Assembly: GCA_003130875.1 (NCBI GenBank)
Contig: QEXY01000123.1
Location: 18,972-82,971, forward strand
DNA length: 64,000 bases
From: Ardenticatenia bacterium
GTDB lineage: Bacteria; Chloroflexota; Anaerolineae; 4572-78; NAK82
Direction of reading: 5' to 3'
The translations under genes and the position numbers were made by a program. This document shows, piece by piece, positions 51,886-60,540 of the stretch; the stretch's first letter is position 1, and each line of letters starts with the position of its first letter. The notes beneath the pieces are model-generated. The model was not told where the DNA came from, searched no databases, and was given only the letters and a program-made list of their open reading frames with translations.

Positions 51886-52899
51886 TCACTCAAAGTCTTG
51901 TACGGAGACCACCTTGCCGGTGGCAGCGGATGCCTCCGCTGCCAGACACGCCTGCACCGCGGCCATCGATTCCTCCGGTGTGATGATGGTGGGGGGCGTT
52001 TTCTCCAGGATGCAGGTGATAAAGTAGTTCAGCTCCTCCGCCAACGCACCACCCCGCACACCCGGACGGATCTCAGGCCAATAGGTGGGATCTGGGGTGT
52101 AGGCCCCATGCTTGTCCACCACGGACACAGGCGGGTAGGTCTCCTGTAGATAGACCCCACCCTCCGTGCCGATGATCTCCATCCGCTCGTCGGGAAAATA
52201 GCCCTTGTGGTCCGGCATACACCAGACGTTTTCCAGAACGCCGATGGCACCGCTGTCGAAGCGATACATCGTCCATCCGATGTCAGGATATTTGTGCCCA
52301 TGGACATTGAGCGTCTGAGCATAGGCGCTCACGATCTTGGCCCCGGTGTACCAGAGCATGATATCGGTGTCGTGCACGCCATCGCCGATGATCGGTCCAA
52401 TTTTGGGCAGCACCTGGGCACCGATGGAGACCGGCACATTGCGACGCGCATAGATGGACACAATCTTGCCGATCTTGCCAGCAGCGATCTCACGCTTCAC
52501 GGCGGCGTAGCGTGGATTGAAGCGCACAATGTGACCTACCATGAAGAACTTGTCGGACGCCTTGGCCGCTTGCACGATAGCGCGACAATCTGCCACTGTG
52601 GAAGCCATCGGCTTCTCTAAGAAGACATGTTTGCCCGCCTGGATCGCGGCCAGGGTGGGCGCTGTGTGCTGATCCCACATCGTGGTGATGCTCACCGCCT
52701 CCAGCTCGGGGTCGGCCAGCATCTCATTGTAATCGGTGTAGAGCTTGGTCACGCCGAACTTTTTGCCCAGTTCCTTGAGGCGTGACTCGGTGCGCGTGCA
52801 GAGCGCGTATAGCTCCACGTTGGGCAGGCCGGCGAGTGCCTCACCGTGATATTCGCCGAACCAGCCCAGCCCAATAATGCCATATTTGACCTTCGCCAT
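51886..52899 (-). CDS. Gfo/Idh/MocA-family oxidoreductase
   Basis: 337 aa. The N-terminal Rossmann fold has YGIIGLGWFGEYHGEALAGLP and the catalytic Lys lies in VFLEKPMA near residue 97. The substrate domain has GDGVHDTDIMLWYTG, with the His used in inositol dehydrogenase-type catalysis. The family oxidises or epimerises sugars and polyols with NAD(P). It is the last gene of the minus-strand operon running from the ROK gene. Confidence 0.92.
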   Translation of the reverse strand: MAKVKYGIIGLGWFGEYHGEALAGLPNVELYALCTRTESRLKELGKKFGVTKLYTDYNEMLADPELEAVSITTMWDQHTAPTLAAIQAGKHVFLEKPMASTVADCRAIVQAAKASDKFFMVGHIVRFNPRYAAVKREIAAGKIGKIVSIYARRNVPVSIGAQVLPKIGPIIGDGVHDTDIMLWYTGAKIVSAYAQTLNVHGHKYPDIGWTMYRFDSGAIGVLENVWCMPDHKGYFPDERMEIIGTEGGVYLQETYPPVSVVDKHGAYTPDPTYWPEIRPGVRGGALAEELNYFITCILEKTPPTIITPEESMAAVQACLAAEASAATGKVVSVQDFE

Positions 52900-52948
52900 G
52901 GTGACAGAACCTCCTTGTCGAGAACTTCACCTCTGCCCAGCAGAGGGC

Positions 52949-53296
52949 TTATGACGAGCCACCCTTGTGCCAGTCCTTGCCCACTTTGCTTTCCATGAAT
53001 TCCCAGACGACGCCGTCCTTGTGTACAAAGACCACGCGCAGATCCGGGGTGGGGTTGAATGGACCCAATATCACCTCGGCGCCTTCGATCTCTTTTTCAA
53101 GGTTGTCCACGCGGAACGCGATGTGTGGCAATGTGCGCAACGGACCTGTGACCGGGCTGTCGGGCTCGTAGCGCAGATACTCCACCATTTGAGGACTGTT
53201 GGCCGGATTGGTGACCCACACCCGGGTGGACTCGACGAACATCTCGTCGGGGTGTTTTTCGGTGGTGGGCAACCCGATGTGGTCAAACTCTCTCAT
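52949..53296 (-). CDS. VOC-superfamily (glyoxalase-like) protein
   Basis: 115 aa from ATG 53296, preceded by GAGGAGGG eight bases upstream; the track start is ten codons early. MREFDHIGLPTTEKHP has the first metal His (DHIG), LPHIAFRVDNLEKEIEGAEVILGPFNP the second half start and VVFVHKDGVVWEFMES the final Glu. VOC proteins use a metal to handle small metabolites (isomerases, dioxygenases, glyoxalases). It probably acts on an intermediate of the local pathway; the substrate is unknown. Confidence 0.85.
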   Translation of the reverse strand: MREFDHIGLPTTEKHPDEMFVESTRVWVTNPANSPQMVEYLRYEPDSPVTGPLRTLPHIAFRVDNLEKEIEGAEVILGPFNPTPDLRVVFVHKDGVVWEFMESKVGKDWHKGGSS

Positions 53297-53376
53297 CTTT
53301 GAAACCCTCCTCTTCATCAAGCGCACGCTGCACCGAGCCGCTCACACTGGACGGTGGAGGTGCAGTGGGGAATCGC

Positions 53377-54294
53377 TCAACTCATATGGATTTCCACGTT
53401 GTCCGCCACACCACCGAGGAGCACGTAACGGGTGGGCGCTGTTTGCAGGATCGAGCCAGGCACGAAGGTGTTGACCGGCCCATGCGCCACTAAGCGGGCG
53501 ATAAAGCGCTGCCAGCTAACTCCACCTCCCAGATAGCCGTCCAGCCAGAAGCTGCGATAGCGCGCTCCCAGGATCTGTGCCGGCCCGATCGTGTTTGCCT
53601 TGGGCGGCACCCATGACCAGTCGCCGCCGAACGAGTGCAGAGCATTCTGCATAATTGTCATCGGAGTCAGCGTCACCAGCCGGGGGCCCGCCTTTTTGTA
53701 CGCCTCCAGGTCATCGCCGAACTCATAGCCCAGCGACGATTCCCAGAACGCAATATGCCCACACCAGCCGATGCCGCCGTAACAGACATCGGCACCTCCC
53801 AGCTCCTCGATCATCTCCGCGTAGCGCGGCAGTGCCTCGGTTGTGGGGAAGTGGATTTGGCTGAGCGGTGGCCGCAGTTCGGGGTCGATCAGGTTGAAGA
53901 AACTGTCGAACATCGCTTTCTGGAAGGAACCTTCCCAGTCCGGCGGCGCGGTGCGACCGTTCTCGTCGGCATACTCGTCCATGTTGAAGGTGTGGACATG
54001 GTGCATCGGAATGCGCAGCGCGTTGATCATGCGCGCGGCAATAGGGTACTGCGGCATCGGGCCTACGGGGAAGATGCCCACGAAGCGTCGCCCTTCGTCC
54101 AACGCTTGCTTGATGCGCATTACGATATCGGTGGCGAAGGCGGCATAGAATTCGCCGGGGTCGTCGATGATCTCGATTTTGAAATCCGGGTTCGGGTGCT
54201 TCGTGATCTCCTCACGCTTGATACGTCGCACCCGCTCACAAACCGCTGCGTCCTTAAAGTCAAGAAAATCTGCCAGAGCGTATGTGAAAGCCAT
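53377..54294 (-). CDS. NagB-like (glucosamine-6-phosphate deaminase family) protein, copy 2
   Basis: 305 aa. The fold is NagB/6-phosphogluconolactonase like: FVGIFPVGPMPQY for the phosphate loop, FNMDEYAD (Asp106, matching NagB Asp72) and GGIGWCGHIAFWESSLG. In NagB the last motif is GxGxDGHIAFNEP with catalytic Asp141-His143-Glu148. Here Asp is Cys178, while His180 and Glu185 remain. A NagB-type ring-opening mechanism may be changed. It is about 85% identical by eye to the adjacent 54320 gene, a tandem duplication. Confidence 0.85.
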   Translation of the reverse strand: MAFTYALADFLDFKDAAVCERVRRIKREEITKHPNPDFKIEIIDDPGEFYAAFATDIVMRIKQALDEGRRFVGIFPVGPMPQYPIAARMINALRIPMHHVHTFNMDEYADENGRTAPPDWEGSFQKAMFDSFFNLIDPELRPPLSQIHFPTTEALPRYAEMIEELGGADVCYGGIGWCGHIAFWESSLGYEFGDDLEAYKKAGPRLVTLTPMTIMQNALHSFGGDWSWVPPKANTIGPAQILGARYRSFWLDGYLGGGVSWQRFIARLVAHGPVNTFVPGSILQTAPTRYVLLGGVADNVEIHMS

Positions 54295-54319
54295 CCGTAT
54301 TCCTCCTTCTGTTTTTGAA

Positions 54320-55234
54320 TCAGCTCATACGAATTTCAACATTGTCCGCCACACCTCCTAGCAACACGTACCGCGTGGGGACGGTCTGCAAGATGGAACC
54401 AGGCACAAAGGTATTGACGGGCCCATGGGCTACTAACCGGGCAATAAAGCGCTGCCAGCTGACGTTGCCGGTCAGATAGCTCAGCCAGAAACTGCGATCG
54501 CGCGCGTTGACCACCTGCGCTGGACCAATCGTGTTCGCCTTGGGTGGCACCCACGACCAGTCACCGCCAAATGAGCTGAGAGCGTTTTGCATAATGGTTA
54601 TGGGCGTGAGCGTCACGAGGCGGGGACCCGCTTTCATATAAGCTTCCAGGTCGTCACCGAACTCATAGCCCAGCGAGGATTCCCAGAAAGCGATATGGCC
54701 GCACCAGCCGATGCCGCCGTAACACACATCCACACCACCGACTTCCTCGATCATGTCGGCGTAACGCTCGAGCACATCCGTCGTAGGGAAGTGGATTTGG
54801 CTAAGCGGCGGGCGCAGCTCGGGATCGATCAGGTTGAAGAAGTTGTCGAACATGCACTTTTGGAAGGAGCCCTCCCAGTCGGCCGGGGCCGTGTTGCCGT
54901 TTTCATCGGCATATTCGTCCATGTTGAAGGTGTGGACATGGTGCATCGGGATGCGCAACGCGTTGATCATGCGCGCCGCGATAGGGTATTGAGCGGTGGG
55001 GCCCACCGGCAGGATCATCACGAAGCGTCGCCCTTCATCCAACGCTTGCTTGATGCGCGCCACAATATCTGTGGCAAACGCTGCGTAGAAGTCCTTCTCA
55101 TCCTCGATCACTTCGATCTTGAAGTCTGGGTTGGGATGCTGGGTGATCTCCTCGCGCTTGATGCGTCGCACTCGCTCACAAACTTCGCGGTCTTTGAAGT
55201 CCAGAAAATCGGCCATGTTGTACTGGAAGGGCAT
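54320..55234 (-). CDS. NagB-like (glucosamine-6-phosphate deaminase family) protein, copy 1
   Basis: 304 aa, the upstream member of the tandem pair. It has the same motif set (FNMDEYADENG, YGGIGWCGHIAFWESSLGYEFGDDLEAY, WSWVPPKANTIGPAQ, HGPVNTFVPGSILQ) and the same Asp-to-Cys change in the NagB catalytic motif. Differences cluster at residues 70-80 (FVMILPVGPTAQ) and 250-262. Retention of both copies with identical active-site changes suggests function, perhaps with different substrates or as a hetero-oligomer. It is spaced 25 bases from copy 2 and 12 bases from the upstream gene. Confidence 0.85.
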   Translation of the reverse strand: MPFQYNMADFLDFKDREVCERVRRIKREEITQHPNPDFKIEVIEDEKDFYAAFATDIVARIKQALDEGRRFVMILPVGPTAQYPIAARMINALRIPMHHVHTFNMDEYADENGNTAPADWEGSFQKCMFDNFFNLIDPELRPPLSQIHFPTTDVLERYADMIEEVGGVDVCYGGIGWCGHIAFWESSLGYEFGDDLEAYMKAGPRLVTLTPITIMQNALSSFGGDWSWVPPKANTIGPAQVVNARDRSFWLSYLTGNVSWQRFIARLVAHGPVNTFVPGSILQTVPTRYVLLGGVADNVEIRMS

Positions 55235-55246
55235 GGGTTTCTCCTT

Positions 55247-56248
55247 TTATAAGGTGACCACCTGGTCAGTTTCCAGCGAGCGCCGTGCGGCCAGGGCGGT
55301 TTGTACGGCCAGGCGCGCCTGTTCTGGTGTGCCGCGCTCCGGAAGTCGGTTGGCGCGCACACATTCGACGAAGTAGGCGACTTCTGCCTCGTAGGCGTCG
55401 CTACCTGGCGAGGGCAATGCGCGGGGCGGTTTGCCCGACTCGTACACCATCAAGCTGGTGCCCTCGGCGGTGCCTGTCTCCACGCCGGTGCCACCAGCGC
55501 GGAAGTTGAACTCGGCGGAGCCCTGCTCGCACAACACCGCTAAGCTCATTGTAAACGGATACCCATCTGGCATCATCACGCTGCCCTCAGCATAGGACTT
55601 GACATCGCCGTAGTCCACCAGCGTCAACACGTGATCCCAGCCGCCATAGACCCCACGTTGGCCGCGCGCGTACACCGAACGGGGCGTCCCGAAGAACCAG
55701 TTCAGCGTGTCCAGGTCGTGAATGTGCAGATCCAGCACGGCGCCACCTGTCCAGTCTGCATTGGCGAACCAATCGCCCCATCTGGGCCGGGTGGAGAGCC
55801 GTCTGGCGACCGCGGCCAGCGGTCTGCCCAGCGTGCCGCTGGCGACGAATTCATGCAAGGCGACATATTCGGGCCAGAAGCGGATCACATGCGCGATCAT
55901 GAACGGCCTGCCCGCCGCTCGCGCCGCCGTGATCATGGCATCGCATTCCTCGACGGTCAGTCCCATCGGCTTCTCGAGCAGAACCGCTTTGCCCGCCTGC
56001 AATGCCGCAATGGTATACTCTTTGTGAAAAGGTGTGGGCAACGTGTTGCTGATGACATCTACGCTGGGATCGGTCGCCACTGCCATATGATCCAGAGAAG
56101 CGCGTGCCCCCACTTCCTGGGCGAGGGCGGCTGCCTTCTCCATCGTGCGCGAGGTCACCGCGACCACCTGCACATCCGGTAGTTTGGCAAAGGCACGGGC
56201 GTGCGTGCTGCCCATAAAACCGGCACCAAGCACTCCTACGCGGATCAT
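55247..56248 (-). CDS. Gfo/Idh/MocA-family oxidoreductase
   Basis: 333 aa. The N-terminus IRVGVLGAGFMGSTHARAFAKLPDV is the NAD(P) Rossmann loop; VLLEKPMGLTVEECD carries the catalytic Lys; GGAVLDLHIHDLDTLNWFFG is the substrate-domain His motif. It is only distantly like the other oxidoreductase in this operon. It probably oxidises a sugar or inositol derivative before or after the isomerase and NagB-like steps. Confidence 0.92.
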   Translation of the reverse strand: MIRVGVLGAGFMGSTHARAFAKLPDVQVVAVTSRTMEKAAALAQEVGARASLDHMAVATDPSVDVISNTLPTPFHKEYTIAALQAGKAVLLEKPMGLTVEECDAMITAARAAGRPFMIAHVIRFWPEYVALHEFVASGTLGRPLAAVARRLSTRPRWGDWFANADWTGGAVLDLHIHDLDTLNWFFGTPRSVYARGQRGVYGGWDHVLTLVDYGDVKSYAEGSVMMPDGYPFTMSLAVLCEQGSAEFNFRAGGTGVETGTAEGTSLMVYESGKPPRALPSPGSDAYEAEVAYFVECVRANRLPERGTPEQARLAVQTALAARRSLETDQVVTL

Positions 56249-56279
56249 GAGTGTTCTCCCCCGTCTTCTCGAATGGGTC

Positions 56280-57083
56280 TCAGCTGAGACCGAGCTGTTT
56301 CAGGTGAGCATAGGAGGCTTTCATTGCGCGGTGTACCTCTTCCAGCGGCGGCCATGGCTCCCCGCTGAACTCGAGCTCGACGCTAAACGGGTTGGTGTAG
56401 CCTTCTTCTTCGAGAATCTTGAGCACGCGCGCGAAGTCGACCGTTCCCTCTCCGATGGCGGGGAAGTCCCACACCCCCTTGCCACCGCGCTTGTCCTTGA
56501 GGTGTACATGGGCGAGGTAAGGCACCACCGGTCGGATATCGTCCACCGCCTGTACACCGCCGTAGAAGACGCAATTGCCTGTGTCATAGTTGATGCGCAC
56601 ATTGGCACGGTTGATCTCTTGGATGAGTGGGATGGACAAGGCGCCGGTCGCCATGATGTCGCCATGCACCTCGAGCGCCAGGAAGACGTTGCGACGCGCT
56701 GCGTAGTCGGCCAGCTCGAAAATATGGCGCATGAAAGCGGCTTTGTCCTCTTCTTTGCCAGCATGACCGCCCACCGCTGTGTTCATGAGATGAACTCCCA
56801 GCCGGACGCACAGGTCTATGGCTTTCTTACCGTCCGCCAGACCTTGCGGCGTGGTGAGGTCGGAGTGGCCGCTGAGCGCTGAGATGCGCAATCCAGCCCT
56901 CTCGACCTGATCCTGGATGCGAGCAATTTGTTCATCCGTGGCTTCGAGCGGCACATGCTCGGTCCACCCGCGCACGGCGCTCAATTCGACATACTTGAAC
57001 CCGGCCTGTGCGATGCCTTCCAGCGCCTGTTCCAGGCTATACGTGTGGTAGCTGTTTGTGTTACCTGCCAGGATGTTATGCAT
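56280..57083 (-). CDS. Xylose-isomerase-like TIM-barrel sugar epimerase/isomerase
   Basis: 267 aa. The AP-endonuclease-2 type barrel shows a metal site: Glu in FLALEVHGD, Asp in INYDTGNC, His in LAHVHLKDKRG and Glu in FSVELEF. The family includes hydroxypyruvate isomerase, tagatose/allulose epimerases and inosose dehydratase-like enzymes. The start ATG 57083 has GGAG upstream. A long structured leader lies between this gene and the ROK gene. Confidence 0.88.
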   Translation of the reverse strand: MHNILAGNTNSYHTYSLEQALEGIAQAGFKYVELSAVRGWTEHVPLEATDEQIARIQDQVERAGLRISALSGHSDLTTPQGLADGKKAIDLCVRLGVHLMNTAVGGHAGKEEDKAAFMRHIFELADYAARRNVFLALEVHGDIMATGALSIPLIQEINRANVRINYDTGNCVFYGGVQAVDDIRPVVPYLAHVHLKDKRGGKGVWDFPAIGEGTVDFARVLKILEEEGYTNPFSVELEFSGEPWPPLEEVHRAMKASYAHLKQLGLS

Positions 57084-57251: not shown

Positions 57252-58454
57252 TTATGCCTGCATCTTTTGCACGAAGACCCCTTCGTCTGTTTCGAACAGC
57301 GCCATCGCGAGCGCTCCAAGCACGGCGGCGTCCGTCCCCAGCTGCGAGATCACGAGTTCCGGAATATATGGCAATGCGCCGTTGAGACGTGCCGTAATGC
57401 GTTCTATGAACATATCAGCGAACTCCACCAAGTCGCCGCTGAAGATGATGCGATGGGGATCCAACACACAGCTGAGGCTCGCCACTGCCAGCGCGAGGTG
57501 GTCTGCTATCTCGTCCACAATCTGGAGGGCGCATCCGTCTCCCCTGCGCGCGGCGAGGAGCACCATCTCGGCAGTCAGCTGCACATCCTTGTCCTCCAGC
57601 CATTCCCGCAGGATGGAGCTCTGGTCTGAGGCGAGCTTCTCTTGCGCGCGTCGCACAATGCCGACGCTGCCTGCCAGGTCTTCCAGACACCCGAAACCTT
57701 CGTAAGAGCGTCCCAGGTATTGGGTGCCGGGCAGAAGATAGCCGATCTCCCCCGCAGCGCAATGGGCACCGCGATAGAGGAAGCCGGAGAGCACAATGCC
57801 TGCTCCGATGCCGGCGCCCAATGAGATACACACCAGATTGTCGACATCGCGGCCGGCTCCGCGCCAGCTTTCGCCCAACGCGATGAGGTTCACCTCGTTT
57901 TCAACGAAGACGGGCAAGCCGAGCGCCTGTTCCAACAACGCCTTGAGGGGCACATTGCGCCAGCCGAGGCTGGGTGCCCACGCCACCACGCCCTCGCGGT
58001 AGAAAACAATTGACGGCGCCCCAATACCCACCCCACGCACAGGGAGCTCATATTCACGTGCCATGTCGTAGAGAGTGCGTACCAGAGCAATGAGCTGTTG
58101 GATGCCCGCTTCGCCGGGTTCTGCCGGTTGAGCCACCCGCCTGAGGATCTCCCCGTTCAAATCAGAGATCGCGCCGGTCATACTGCGGTGGACGTACACC
58201 CCAATGATCAGACTGGCGCGTGGATTGAACTCCAGCAGGATGGGACGTCGTCCAAAAGGTGCTAGACGTGCTCCTCTTTCTTGGATTACCTGCTTTTGCA
58301 ACAATTCTGTGACGATACGGGTGACCGTGGCGGGGCTGATGTGAAGCAGCCGAGCGATCTCAGAACGGCTGATGGGGCCCTGTTCTCGGATGAGCTCAAG
58401 GATGGCGGACTGATTGACTCTGCGCAGCAAGCTGCCATCGCCGATGTGGTTCAT
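57252..58454 (-). CDS. ROK-family transcriptional regulator
   Basis: 400 aa from ATG 58454 (MNHIGDGSLLRRVNQ); the track TTG at 58478 adds eight residues. The winged helix is NQSAILELIREQGPISRSEIARLLHISPATVTRIVTELL. The sugar-kinase-like domain has ISLGAGIGAGIVLSGFLYRGAHCAAGEIGYLLPG. The usual ROK zinc motif (CxCGxxGC) is reduced to GFGC and the preceding GEIGH is GEIGY, so zinc is probably not bound. It likely represses its own operon until a sugar ligand binds. Confidence 0.9.
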   Translation of the reverse strand: MNHIGDGSLLRRVNQSAILELIREQGPISRSEIARLLHISPATVTRIVTELLQKQVIQERGARLAPFGRRPILLEFNPRASLIIGVYVHRSMTGAISDLNGEILRRVAQPAEPGEAGIQQLIALVRTLYDMAREYELPVRGVGIGAPSIVFYREGVVAWAPSLGWRNVPLKALLEQALGLPVFVENEVNLIALGESWRGAGRDVDNLVCISLGAGIGAGIVLSGFLYRGAHCAAGEIGYLLPGTQYLGRSYEGFGCLEDLAGSVGIVRRAQEKLASDQSSILREWLEDKDVQLTAEMVLLAARRGDGCALQIVDEIADHLALAVASLSCVLDPHRIIFSGDLVEFADMFIERITARLNGALPYIPELVISQLGTDAAVLGALAMALFETDEGVFVQKMQA

Positions 58455-58532
58455 TGGACCATCCGTCTGGGCACTCAAATGAAGCTTAGGGCTACCCCAT
58501 GACGCTGCAATGTGTCGCGGTCGGTGGGATTC

Positions 58533-58577
58533 ATTTCATTACGAAATAAATATATCATGATCTCAGGAATTTGTCAA
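58533..58577 (-). promoter_or_regulatory. ROK promoter with adjoining palindromic operator
   Basis: On the minus strand: TTGACA (58577-58572), 17-base spacer, TATATT (58554-58549), an almost consensus promoter. The last bases of the -10 run into TTATTTC-GTAAT-GAAATGA, a palindrome with one mismatch (ATTTC/GAAAT arms at 58533-58547). TTATTTC-N5-GAAATAA is a typical ROK operator shape, so autorepression is likely. Confidence 0.75.
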
Positions 58578-58579
58578 CG

Positions 58580-58608
58580 TTGAAACCTGAAAGGTTCAGG
58601 ATTATAAT
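58580..58608 (+). promoter_or_regulatory. Promoter of the NarL-type two-component genes with spacer palindrome
   Basis: TTGAAA (58580-58585), 17-base spacer, TATAAT (58603-58608). The spacer contains CCTGAA-AGG-TTCAGG (58586-58600), a perfect 6-base inverted repeat suited to a dimeric regulator. Its -35 lies three bases from the -35 of the divergent ROK promoter. Confidence 0.7.
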
Positions 58609-58632
58609 GAAAATAGGAGGTATGGGATCGAG

Positions 58633-59892
58633 GTGGGAGTAACGTGGCATGCGATGTGGCATTCGATGAATGCCCAACAGGTAGGGTATCGTCTGTCTTG
58701 GGTGGCGATGTTGATCCGGGTGGTGGCGCTCGCTTACGCGTTTGGGGTGCTGTCTTTCTACCCGCATCCCATCATCGCGGCGCGCAGCGACCTGCTCATC
58801 TGGCTGTGGATCGTCGCGGCGGGTTATACGACGTTGTTGATCGTGGTGTTGGTGTTACCGATCAATTATTGGCTGCGCACCACCCCCTTTATGATACTCG
58901 ACACCGCTATAGCGCTGATGCTGGTCAACCTTGCCGGTGGCGGTTACCGCAATATCTTCTCCTTGTACTCCCTCATCCCATCGGTGACTGCCGCACTTTC
59001 GCTGCCGAGCGCAGAACATCATTTTCGCCGGGCGATGCTGTTAGGGGGCGTGGTGGTGGCTTCAACATTGGGGTTTGGCCTCTCCCTCTATCTGGATGGC
59101 TATACCCCAGCGCGGATTATTGAGCTCCGCCAGGTGGACGAAGTGGTCTTGCGCAGCGCCAGCTATTGGGTGACTGGCGGGTTGCTCGCTGCTCTCGCTG
59201 CGATGATGATCGCATGGCAACACAGCCGTGATCGCGCTAACGCCTTGCGGGAGCAATCTGCCATCGAAGAGGAGCGTCGCCGCATCGCCACCGACATCCA
59301 TGACGGGGTGCTCAGCCAGCTCTCGGCACTCAGCCGCCGTGCCGAGTATGCCAGCTTGCTCCTGGCCGAAGATCCCAAGGGCGCCCAAGAGGAACTCCAT
59401 CGCGTCATCACGATGGCGGGTGAGGTGCACGAGGGCATCCGCTGGATCGTGCGCGCATTGCGCCAAGATCCCACTCAGCTGACGTTGGGAGAGGAATTGA
59501 CGCGTATTGCGGAGCGTTTTCAGCATAACACGGAACTGCCCGTTTTGTTGAAGCTGCCGCGCGGGGAGCTGCCGGTGCCTGTCGACACGGTGCGCCATGT
59601 GGGCTATATCGTGACTGAGGCACTGACCAATATATGGAAACATGCCCATGCCAATCGGGCTGTGATCACTGTGCGCCGCGCAGACGGTCGGGTGCTCGTG
59701 AAGGTGGCCGATGATGGATGCGGCTTCGAGGTCGCCCAAGCATTGCAGGCTGCCAACGGCATGGGTTTGCGTAACATGCACGAGCGTGCTCAAGAGATCG
59801 GAGCTGAACTCACATTGCGCTCCGCTCCGGGAAAGGGGTGTCAGGTGCTGATCGATCTGTCCGTGATCCAGGAGGACGACGGGGAGGAATAG
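58633..59892 (+). CDS. NarL-type sensor histidine kinase
   Basis: 419 aa. Five or six N-terminal membrane helices (residues 20-195) without a large external domain suggest sensing inside or within the membrane. The HisKA_3 box EEERRRIATDIHDGVLSQLSAL has His223. The HATPase part has VGYIVTEALTNIWKHAHA, VADDGCGFE and GMGLRNMHERAQEIGAEL. The GTG start at 58633 has AGGAGG twelve bases upstream; ATG 58654 is an alternative. Its stop abuts the start of the response regulator gene. Confidence 0.9.
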   Translation: MGVTWHAMWHSMNAQQVGYRLSWVAMLIRVVALAYAFGVLSFYPHPIIAARSDLLIWLWIVAAGYTTLLIVVLVLPINYWLRTTPFMILDTAIALMLVNLAGGGYRNIFSLYSLIPSVTAALSLPSAEHHFRRAMLLGGVVVASTLGFGLSLYLDGYTPARIIELRQVDEVVLRSASYWVTGGLLAALAAMMIAWQHSRDRANALREQSAIEEERRRIATDIHDGVLSQLSALSRRAEYASLLLAEDPKGAQEELHRVITMAGEVHEGIRWIVRALRQDPTQLTLGEELTRIAERFQHNTELPVLLKLPRGELPVPVDTVRHVGYIVTEALTNIWKHAHANRAVITVRRADGRVLVKVADDGCGFEVAQALQAANGMGLRNMHERAQEIGAELTLRSAPGKGCQVLIDLSVIQEDDGEE

Positions 59893-60540
59893 ATGCCAGT
59901 GCGGGTGTTGATCGCGGATGACGTTGCCTTACATCGTGAATTGCTGGGCAAGCTTCTGGATCGGCAGGATGACATCACAGTGGTGGGTGAAGCAGCCTCG
60001 CCCGAGGAAGCCGTCGCAGCTACAGCCAGGTTGCAACCTGATGTGGTGTTGATGGATTTGCGCATGCCCCGCCACGATCCACAAGGTGGCATCCGGGCGA
60101 TTGAGCAGATCGTCGCCCGCTGTCCCAATGTGCGGGTGTTGGTGCTGACCGAGTCGGATGACGATGCCGACGTGCGCGCAGCCGCGATGGCCGGCGCGGT
60201 CGGTTACATCGTCAAAAGCGCTAAGGCAGCGGACATCGCCGAGGCCATCCGCGCGATTTATGCTGGCAAGAGCTGGCTCGATCCCGCCATCACTGGCTAT
60301 CTGCTGGACGAATACCGTCGCGTCGCACAAGATGTGCGCGCACGCCCCACGCTGACCCGTACTGAGACCAAAGTGCTCCAGCTCATCGCGGCGGGCAAGA
60401 CAACTGCTGAGATCGCCGAGCAACTCTTCATGGCGGAGAAGACGGTCAAGAATCACCTGGCAAACGTCTACCGCAAGCTGGGGGCTAAGAACCGCAGTCA
60501 CGCGGTCAGTGAGGGCTACCGTCAGGGTCTGCTGAAATGA
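59893..60540 (+). CDS. NarL/FixJ-family response regulator
   Basis: 215 aa. The receiver domain has acidic pair ADD, Asp55 in LMDLRMP and Lys in VKSAKA. The C-terminal LuxR helix-turn-helix is LTRTETKVLQLIAAGKTTAEIAEQLFMAEKTVKNHLANVYRKLGAKNRSHAV. It begins directly after the kinase stop and forms a two-component pair with it. A terminator follows, so the pair is its own transcription unit. Confidence 0.95.
   Translation: MPVRVLIADDVALHRELLGKLLDRQDDITVVGEAASPEEAVAATARLQPDVVLMDLRMPRHDPQGGIRAIEQIVARCPNVRVLVLTESDDDADVRAAAMAGAVGYIVKSAKAADIAEAIRAIYAGKSWLDPAITGYLLDEYRRVAQDVRARPTLTRTETKVLQLIAAGKTTAEIAEQLFMAEKTVKNHLANVYRKLGAKNRSHAVSEGYRQGLLK

Follow-up and report, generated by a model that had tools for sequence, protein, structure and literature searches.

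Does a cramped divergent junction tie a sugar-catabolic operon to a two-component system, or are two independent promoters merely neighbors there? The question is raised by a short intergenic region in the 64,000-nucleotide stretch of Ardenticatenia bacterium DNA analyzed here (the window), from which a ROK-family gene reads leftward and a sensor kinase gene rightward. Two promoters, each matching the consensus at 11 of 12 positions, diverge within 58531-58608: the ROK promoter occupies 58549-58577 of the minus strand and the kinase promoter 58580-58608 of the plus strand, and their facing -35 boxes are 2 bp apart (CG, 58578-58579). By promoter match, the ROK -35 box is TTGACA (58572-58577, minus strand), set 17 bp from a TATATT -10 box (58549-58554, minus strand); the kinase boxes are TTGAAA (58580-58585, plus strand) and TATAAT (58603-58608, plus strand), also with a 17-bp spacer. 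These two are the only promoter-like matches in 57500-60000, where 1.1 would be expected, and the 76-bp region has a GC content of 29% compared to 59% for the window. The predicted transcript starts fall near 58542 for ROK and 58615 for the kinase, ~73 bp apart. An earlier note on this DNA had described two near-consensus divergent promoters with -35 boxes two bases apart, and every sequence that it named was found; both of its palindromes exist as well, the ROK one beginning 2 bp before the interval given for it. A third palindrome, TCAACGTTGA (58574-58583), is made by the two facing -35 boxes themselves, is invariant in three congeners, and had been missed.

The best explanation, taken as a whole, is quite probably that two self-contained sigma-70-type promoters meet here, at a junction specific to the genus. 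It is built on sequence, promoter match, conservation, and gene order; binding, repression, induction, start sites, and competition are deduced from these. The family sample comprises seven genomes, six of which carry a kinase orthologue. The genus is represented by three congeners, the window genome (G000), G001, and G002; the two besides the window genome are Anaerolineae bacterium SKYB15 and uncultured Ardenticatenia SRR5214706_bin.41 (Chloroflexota; the latter a metagenome bin). The HisKA_3 sensor kinase gene (58633-59892, plus strand) has orthologues in five other genomes of the family, at 69-93% identity, and in 6/6 genomes it is adjoined by a NarL/LuxR-type response regulator gene (59893-60540, plus strand), followed rightward by genes for an SsuA-like lipoprotein and a polyprenyl synthase. 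All six genomes bear a kinase promoter of the form TTGAAW-N17-TATAAT, with TTGAAA or TTGAAT at equal spacing from an identical -10 box. The kinase adjoins ROK in three of the six, that is, in this genus alone. The kinase locus of G003, G004, and G006 retains its downstream genes next to different upstream neighbors (read from open reading frames as acetolactate synthase-like in G006 and fructose-bisphosphatase-like in G003); ROK and kinase are found in these genomes either on separate contigs or at a distance of ~3.5 Mb, and each has a promoter of its own. Judged by this comparison, the kinase promoter is one that travels with its own kinase/response-regulator locus, family-wide. On the other side of the junction, TTGACA is invariant at 6/6 positions in the three congeners and is also retained at the ROK genes of G003, G004, G006, and G021; the ROK -10 box has 3/6 invariant columns among the congeners, taking the forms TATATT, TATCTT, and TAATAT.

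The leftward gene encodes a NagC-like ROK repressor (57252-58454, minus strand), which combines a ROK domain (Pfam, 4.1e-46) with a winged helix-turn-helix (MarR/HTH_24 in residues 22-66). Its listed open reading frame begins at TTG 58478; the true start is probably ATG 58454, favored because relatives keep the pattern of an ATG, any one codon, and then CAC at this place. Orthologues in G003 and G004 are 61-63% identical. Downstream lie the catabolic genes (51886-57083, minus strand), encoding a sugar isomerase-like protein, two Gfo/Idh/MocA dehydrogenases, two NagB-like deaminases, and a VOC-like protein, the last label being a reading of the sequence with no family matched; the gene order is retained in G001. 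ROK heads a sugar-catabolic operon, and simple autorepression together with control of the operon would therefore be expected. The tandem NagB-like deaminase genes (window 53377-55234) gave no Pfam match, and both copies occur in G001 and one in G002. G004 has a second ROK homologue (L073:3989-4849), matching residues 122-408 only at 61% identity and situated ~3 kb before the isomerase-like gene.

The putative ROK operator, TTATTTC-N5-GAAATGA (58531-58549, minus strand), overlaps the -10 region and start, sharing one base with the -10 box. Its arms are invariant at 14/14 positions in the three congeners, compared to 101/178 columns for the whole intergenic region and 29/71 for the ROK leader. 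Outside the genus, the site again sits directly 3′ of the -10 box in ROK promoters. The ROK genes of G003 and G004 match TTATTTC-N5-GAAATAA at 12/14 positions, a score equaled by 0/300 shuffles (P<1/300); the match at the ROK gene of G006 is weaker (10/14, P=0.08), and in G021, which belongs to a different family within the order, a related TTTTCTTACAGTAAGTAA is readable after TTGACA, though the scan ranked another match higher. Among distant ROK homologues, below ~40% identity, the motif did not rise above shuffles. Since sequence and position are conserved across genera though the kinase lies elsewhere there, the palindrome very probably serves the adjacent NagC-like regulator as its operator, in line with the earlier note: an AT-rich inverted repeat at the promoter of the regulator's own operon, kept in orthologues, as judged by sequence conservation alone. 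It would provide an operator motif for an uncharacterized ROK regulator in this Chloroflexota lineage. In a scan of the window's own genome for both palindromes, 58531-58549 was the sole match to the ROK site with 0 mismatches; CCTGAA-N3-TTCAGG, the kinase-side palindrome, returned two exact matches, the second of which sits inside a coding gene, a carboxyltransferase-like open reading frame. A wider ROK regulon was considered and set aside, at 12 genome matches with <=2 mismatches versus 7 for the reversed control. Inspection by eye of the gap between ROK and the isomerase-like gene revealed no operator.

G006 carries a second copy of the operator (C6:346-364), within a ROK-like promoter and leader that precede a DegT-like aminotransferase gene. 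The locus (C6, L095:240-700) has a ROK-type promoter, the operator, and a leader with an MKHAGGAALF-like start, and its ROK reading frame is lost apart from a remnant of the start. From its sequence it is a decayed ROK duplicate that retained its operator, as would be the case for a site that acts in trans.

In the proposed scheme, the ROK protein would bind TTATTTC-N5-GAAATGA, at about -7 to +12, and shut its own promoter; an inducing sugar or sugar phosphate would release it, whereupon ROK and the downstream catabolic genes would be induced together. The kinase/response-regulator promoter would be constitutive or separately regulated, and ROK bound at the operator, ~66-84 bp ahead of the predicted start of the kinase transcript, should not block it directly. 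The nearest parallel is XylR/xyl of Bacillus and Paenibacillus, likewise a ROK repressor with a sugar operon and an AT-rich inverted repeat at the promoter whose half-sites are 7 bp apart (PMC9104551). The Bacillus XylR operator reads TTNGTTT...AAACNAA, with GTTT-N7-AAAC at its core, and the layout here, TTNATTT-N7-AAATNAA, parallels it (PMC9104551). The half-site, however, is ATTT/AAAT here and GTTT/AAAC in XylR, and here the repressor gene lies on the same strand as the catabolic genes, and what is transcribed divergently is an unrelated kinase gene. NagC/Mlc of E. coli offers a similar likeness, being a ROK regulator with NagB-like enzymes nearby, and its AT-rich operator can overlap the -10 box, as here (PMC5401889). 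The protein is no equivalogue of either, scoring 171.6 against a cut-off of 650 bits for NCBIfam NagC and 137.5 against 530 for Mlc. A search for a second local operator found none; hence, unlike NagC/Mlc, there is no sign of looping. The junction is also distinct from the bidirectional promoters of E. coli, which share one symmetrical -10 box and typically start 18 bp apart (PMC12825309). That class, defined by a shared pseudo-symmetrical -10 box and starts ~10-23 bp apart, does not fit the two separate -10 boxes at 58549-58554 and 58603-58608; what is alike is divergent transcription from a compact region and possible polymerase competition (PMC12825309).

Could the two promoters nevertheless be coupled by their proximity? 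RNA polymerase typically covers from about -55 to +20. Because only 2 bp lie between the -35 boxes, simultaneous occupancy of both promoters is probably precluded, and some passive competition is possible; typical footprints of polymerases at the two promoters would have some 38 bp in common, and mutual exclusion, like competition across the junction generally, is therefore plausible from the sequence. Passive competition, if any, is not a family-wide feature. A stronger proposal is that polymerases compete at the back-to-back -35 boxes under selection, linking catabolism to signaling in this genus, such that the activity of the kinase/response-regulator promoter is favored by ROK occupancy in the absence of sugar and reduced by sugar induction. 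The 2-bp separation and the predicted ~73-bp distance between starts speak for it, as does a 17-bp TTTCAACGTTGACAAAT block invariant in all three congeners, which may have been selected as a coupled whole instead of as two separate -35 boxes; at E. coli bidirectional promoters, moreover, strong activation one way can repress the other via polymerase competition (PMC12825309). Each half of the TTTCAACGTTGACAAAT block is, however, explained independently as a -35 box, and competition in E. coli arises mainly when one direction is strong, with little at basal activity; separate divergent promoters, which the authors excluded, are said not to clash that way (PMC12825309). Adjacency of ROK and kinase is, furthermore, absent in G003, G004, and G006. 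Selected coupling is accordingly improbable, and its variant, in which a rearrangement joined the sugar-operon and kinase promoters and the fused TTTCAACGTTGACAAAT was afterward preserved by selection as a mutually exclusive switch, is about equally so; were the latter true, two-component expression would be reciprocal to sugar induction without a shared regulator. The link that the earlier note drew between catabolic locus and two-component system is no conserved feature of either system, with the genes apart in three genomes; as read here it is weak and confined to one genus. If true, coupling would illustrate on a small scale how gene order alone can create a regulatory link. The junction as a whole is ordinary: two ordinary bacterial promoters back to back.

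The palindromes, as such, are not striking either. Judged by dinucleotide shuffles of the region, a perfect inverted repeat with 6-bp arms arises in 30% of shuffles; near-palindromes with 7-bp arms and <=1 mismatch number eight, several of them overlapping (P=0.018), and a perfect palindrome inside a given 17-bp spacer has P ~0.004. Conservation, not symmetry, is the deciding criterion, and cross-genus comparison tells the conserved operator apart from a nonconserved palindrome. The 30% figure would suit a reading of both palindromes as chance symmetry in AT-rich promoter DNA, but the ROK site is kept in sequence and position across genera, which makes that reading very unlikely for the pair; it remains a good one for the CCTGAA palindrome alone. 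That repeat, CCTGAA-AGG-TTCAGG (58586-58600), lies within the kinase promoter spacer and is kept at 15/15 positions in G002 and at 8/15 in G001, although the -35 and -10 boxes of the G001 kinase promoter are unchanged (12/12). Lost in so close a relative, it is probably not a conserved operator, and the earlier claim of a second functional palindrome is left unsupported by the test its own author had set; its intact state in G002 counts against the best explanation. Three sister-genus kinase promoters (L070, L071, L072) bear GAATC-N7-GATTC across the -35 box and spacer, unlike the window. Given these repeats and the G002 palindrome, some regulator may act at the kinase spacer. Conceivably, the spacer is an autoregulatory operator for the cognate response regulator or another factor that has drifted between GAATC-N7-GATTC in the sister genera and CCTGAA-N3-TTCAGG in 2/3 congeners: a perfect inverted repeat with arms of at least 5 bp occurs at or in the spacer of 5/6 family kinase promoters, at a chance of ~0.11 each. 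Yet the two repeats are unlike in sequence, spacing, and center, and G001 has neither; nor are the spacers independent, as common descent links the outgroup spacers with one another and, likewise, the two congener spacers. GAATCC-N5-GGATTC with <=1 mismatch, moreover, gave scattered matches in all six genomes and no clear regulon, and a drifted operator is an unlikely reading. Beyond the kinase promoter, an ATG after AGGAGG opens a 6-codon open reading frame that overlaps the GTG start of the kinase (window 58622-58642); it is absent from G001 and recurs in G002.
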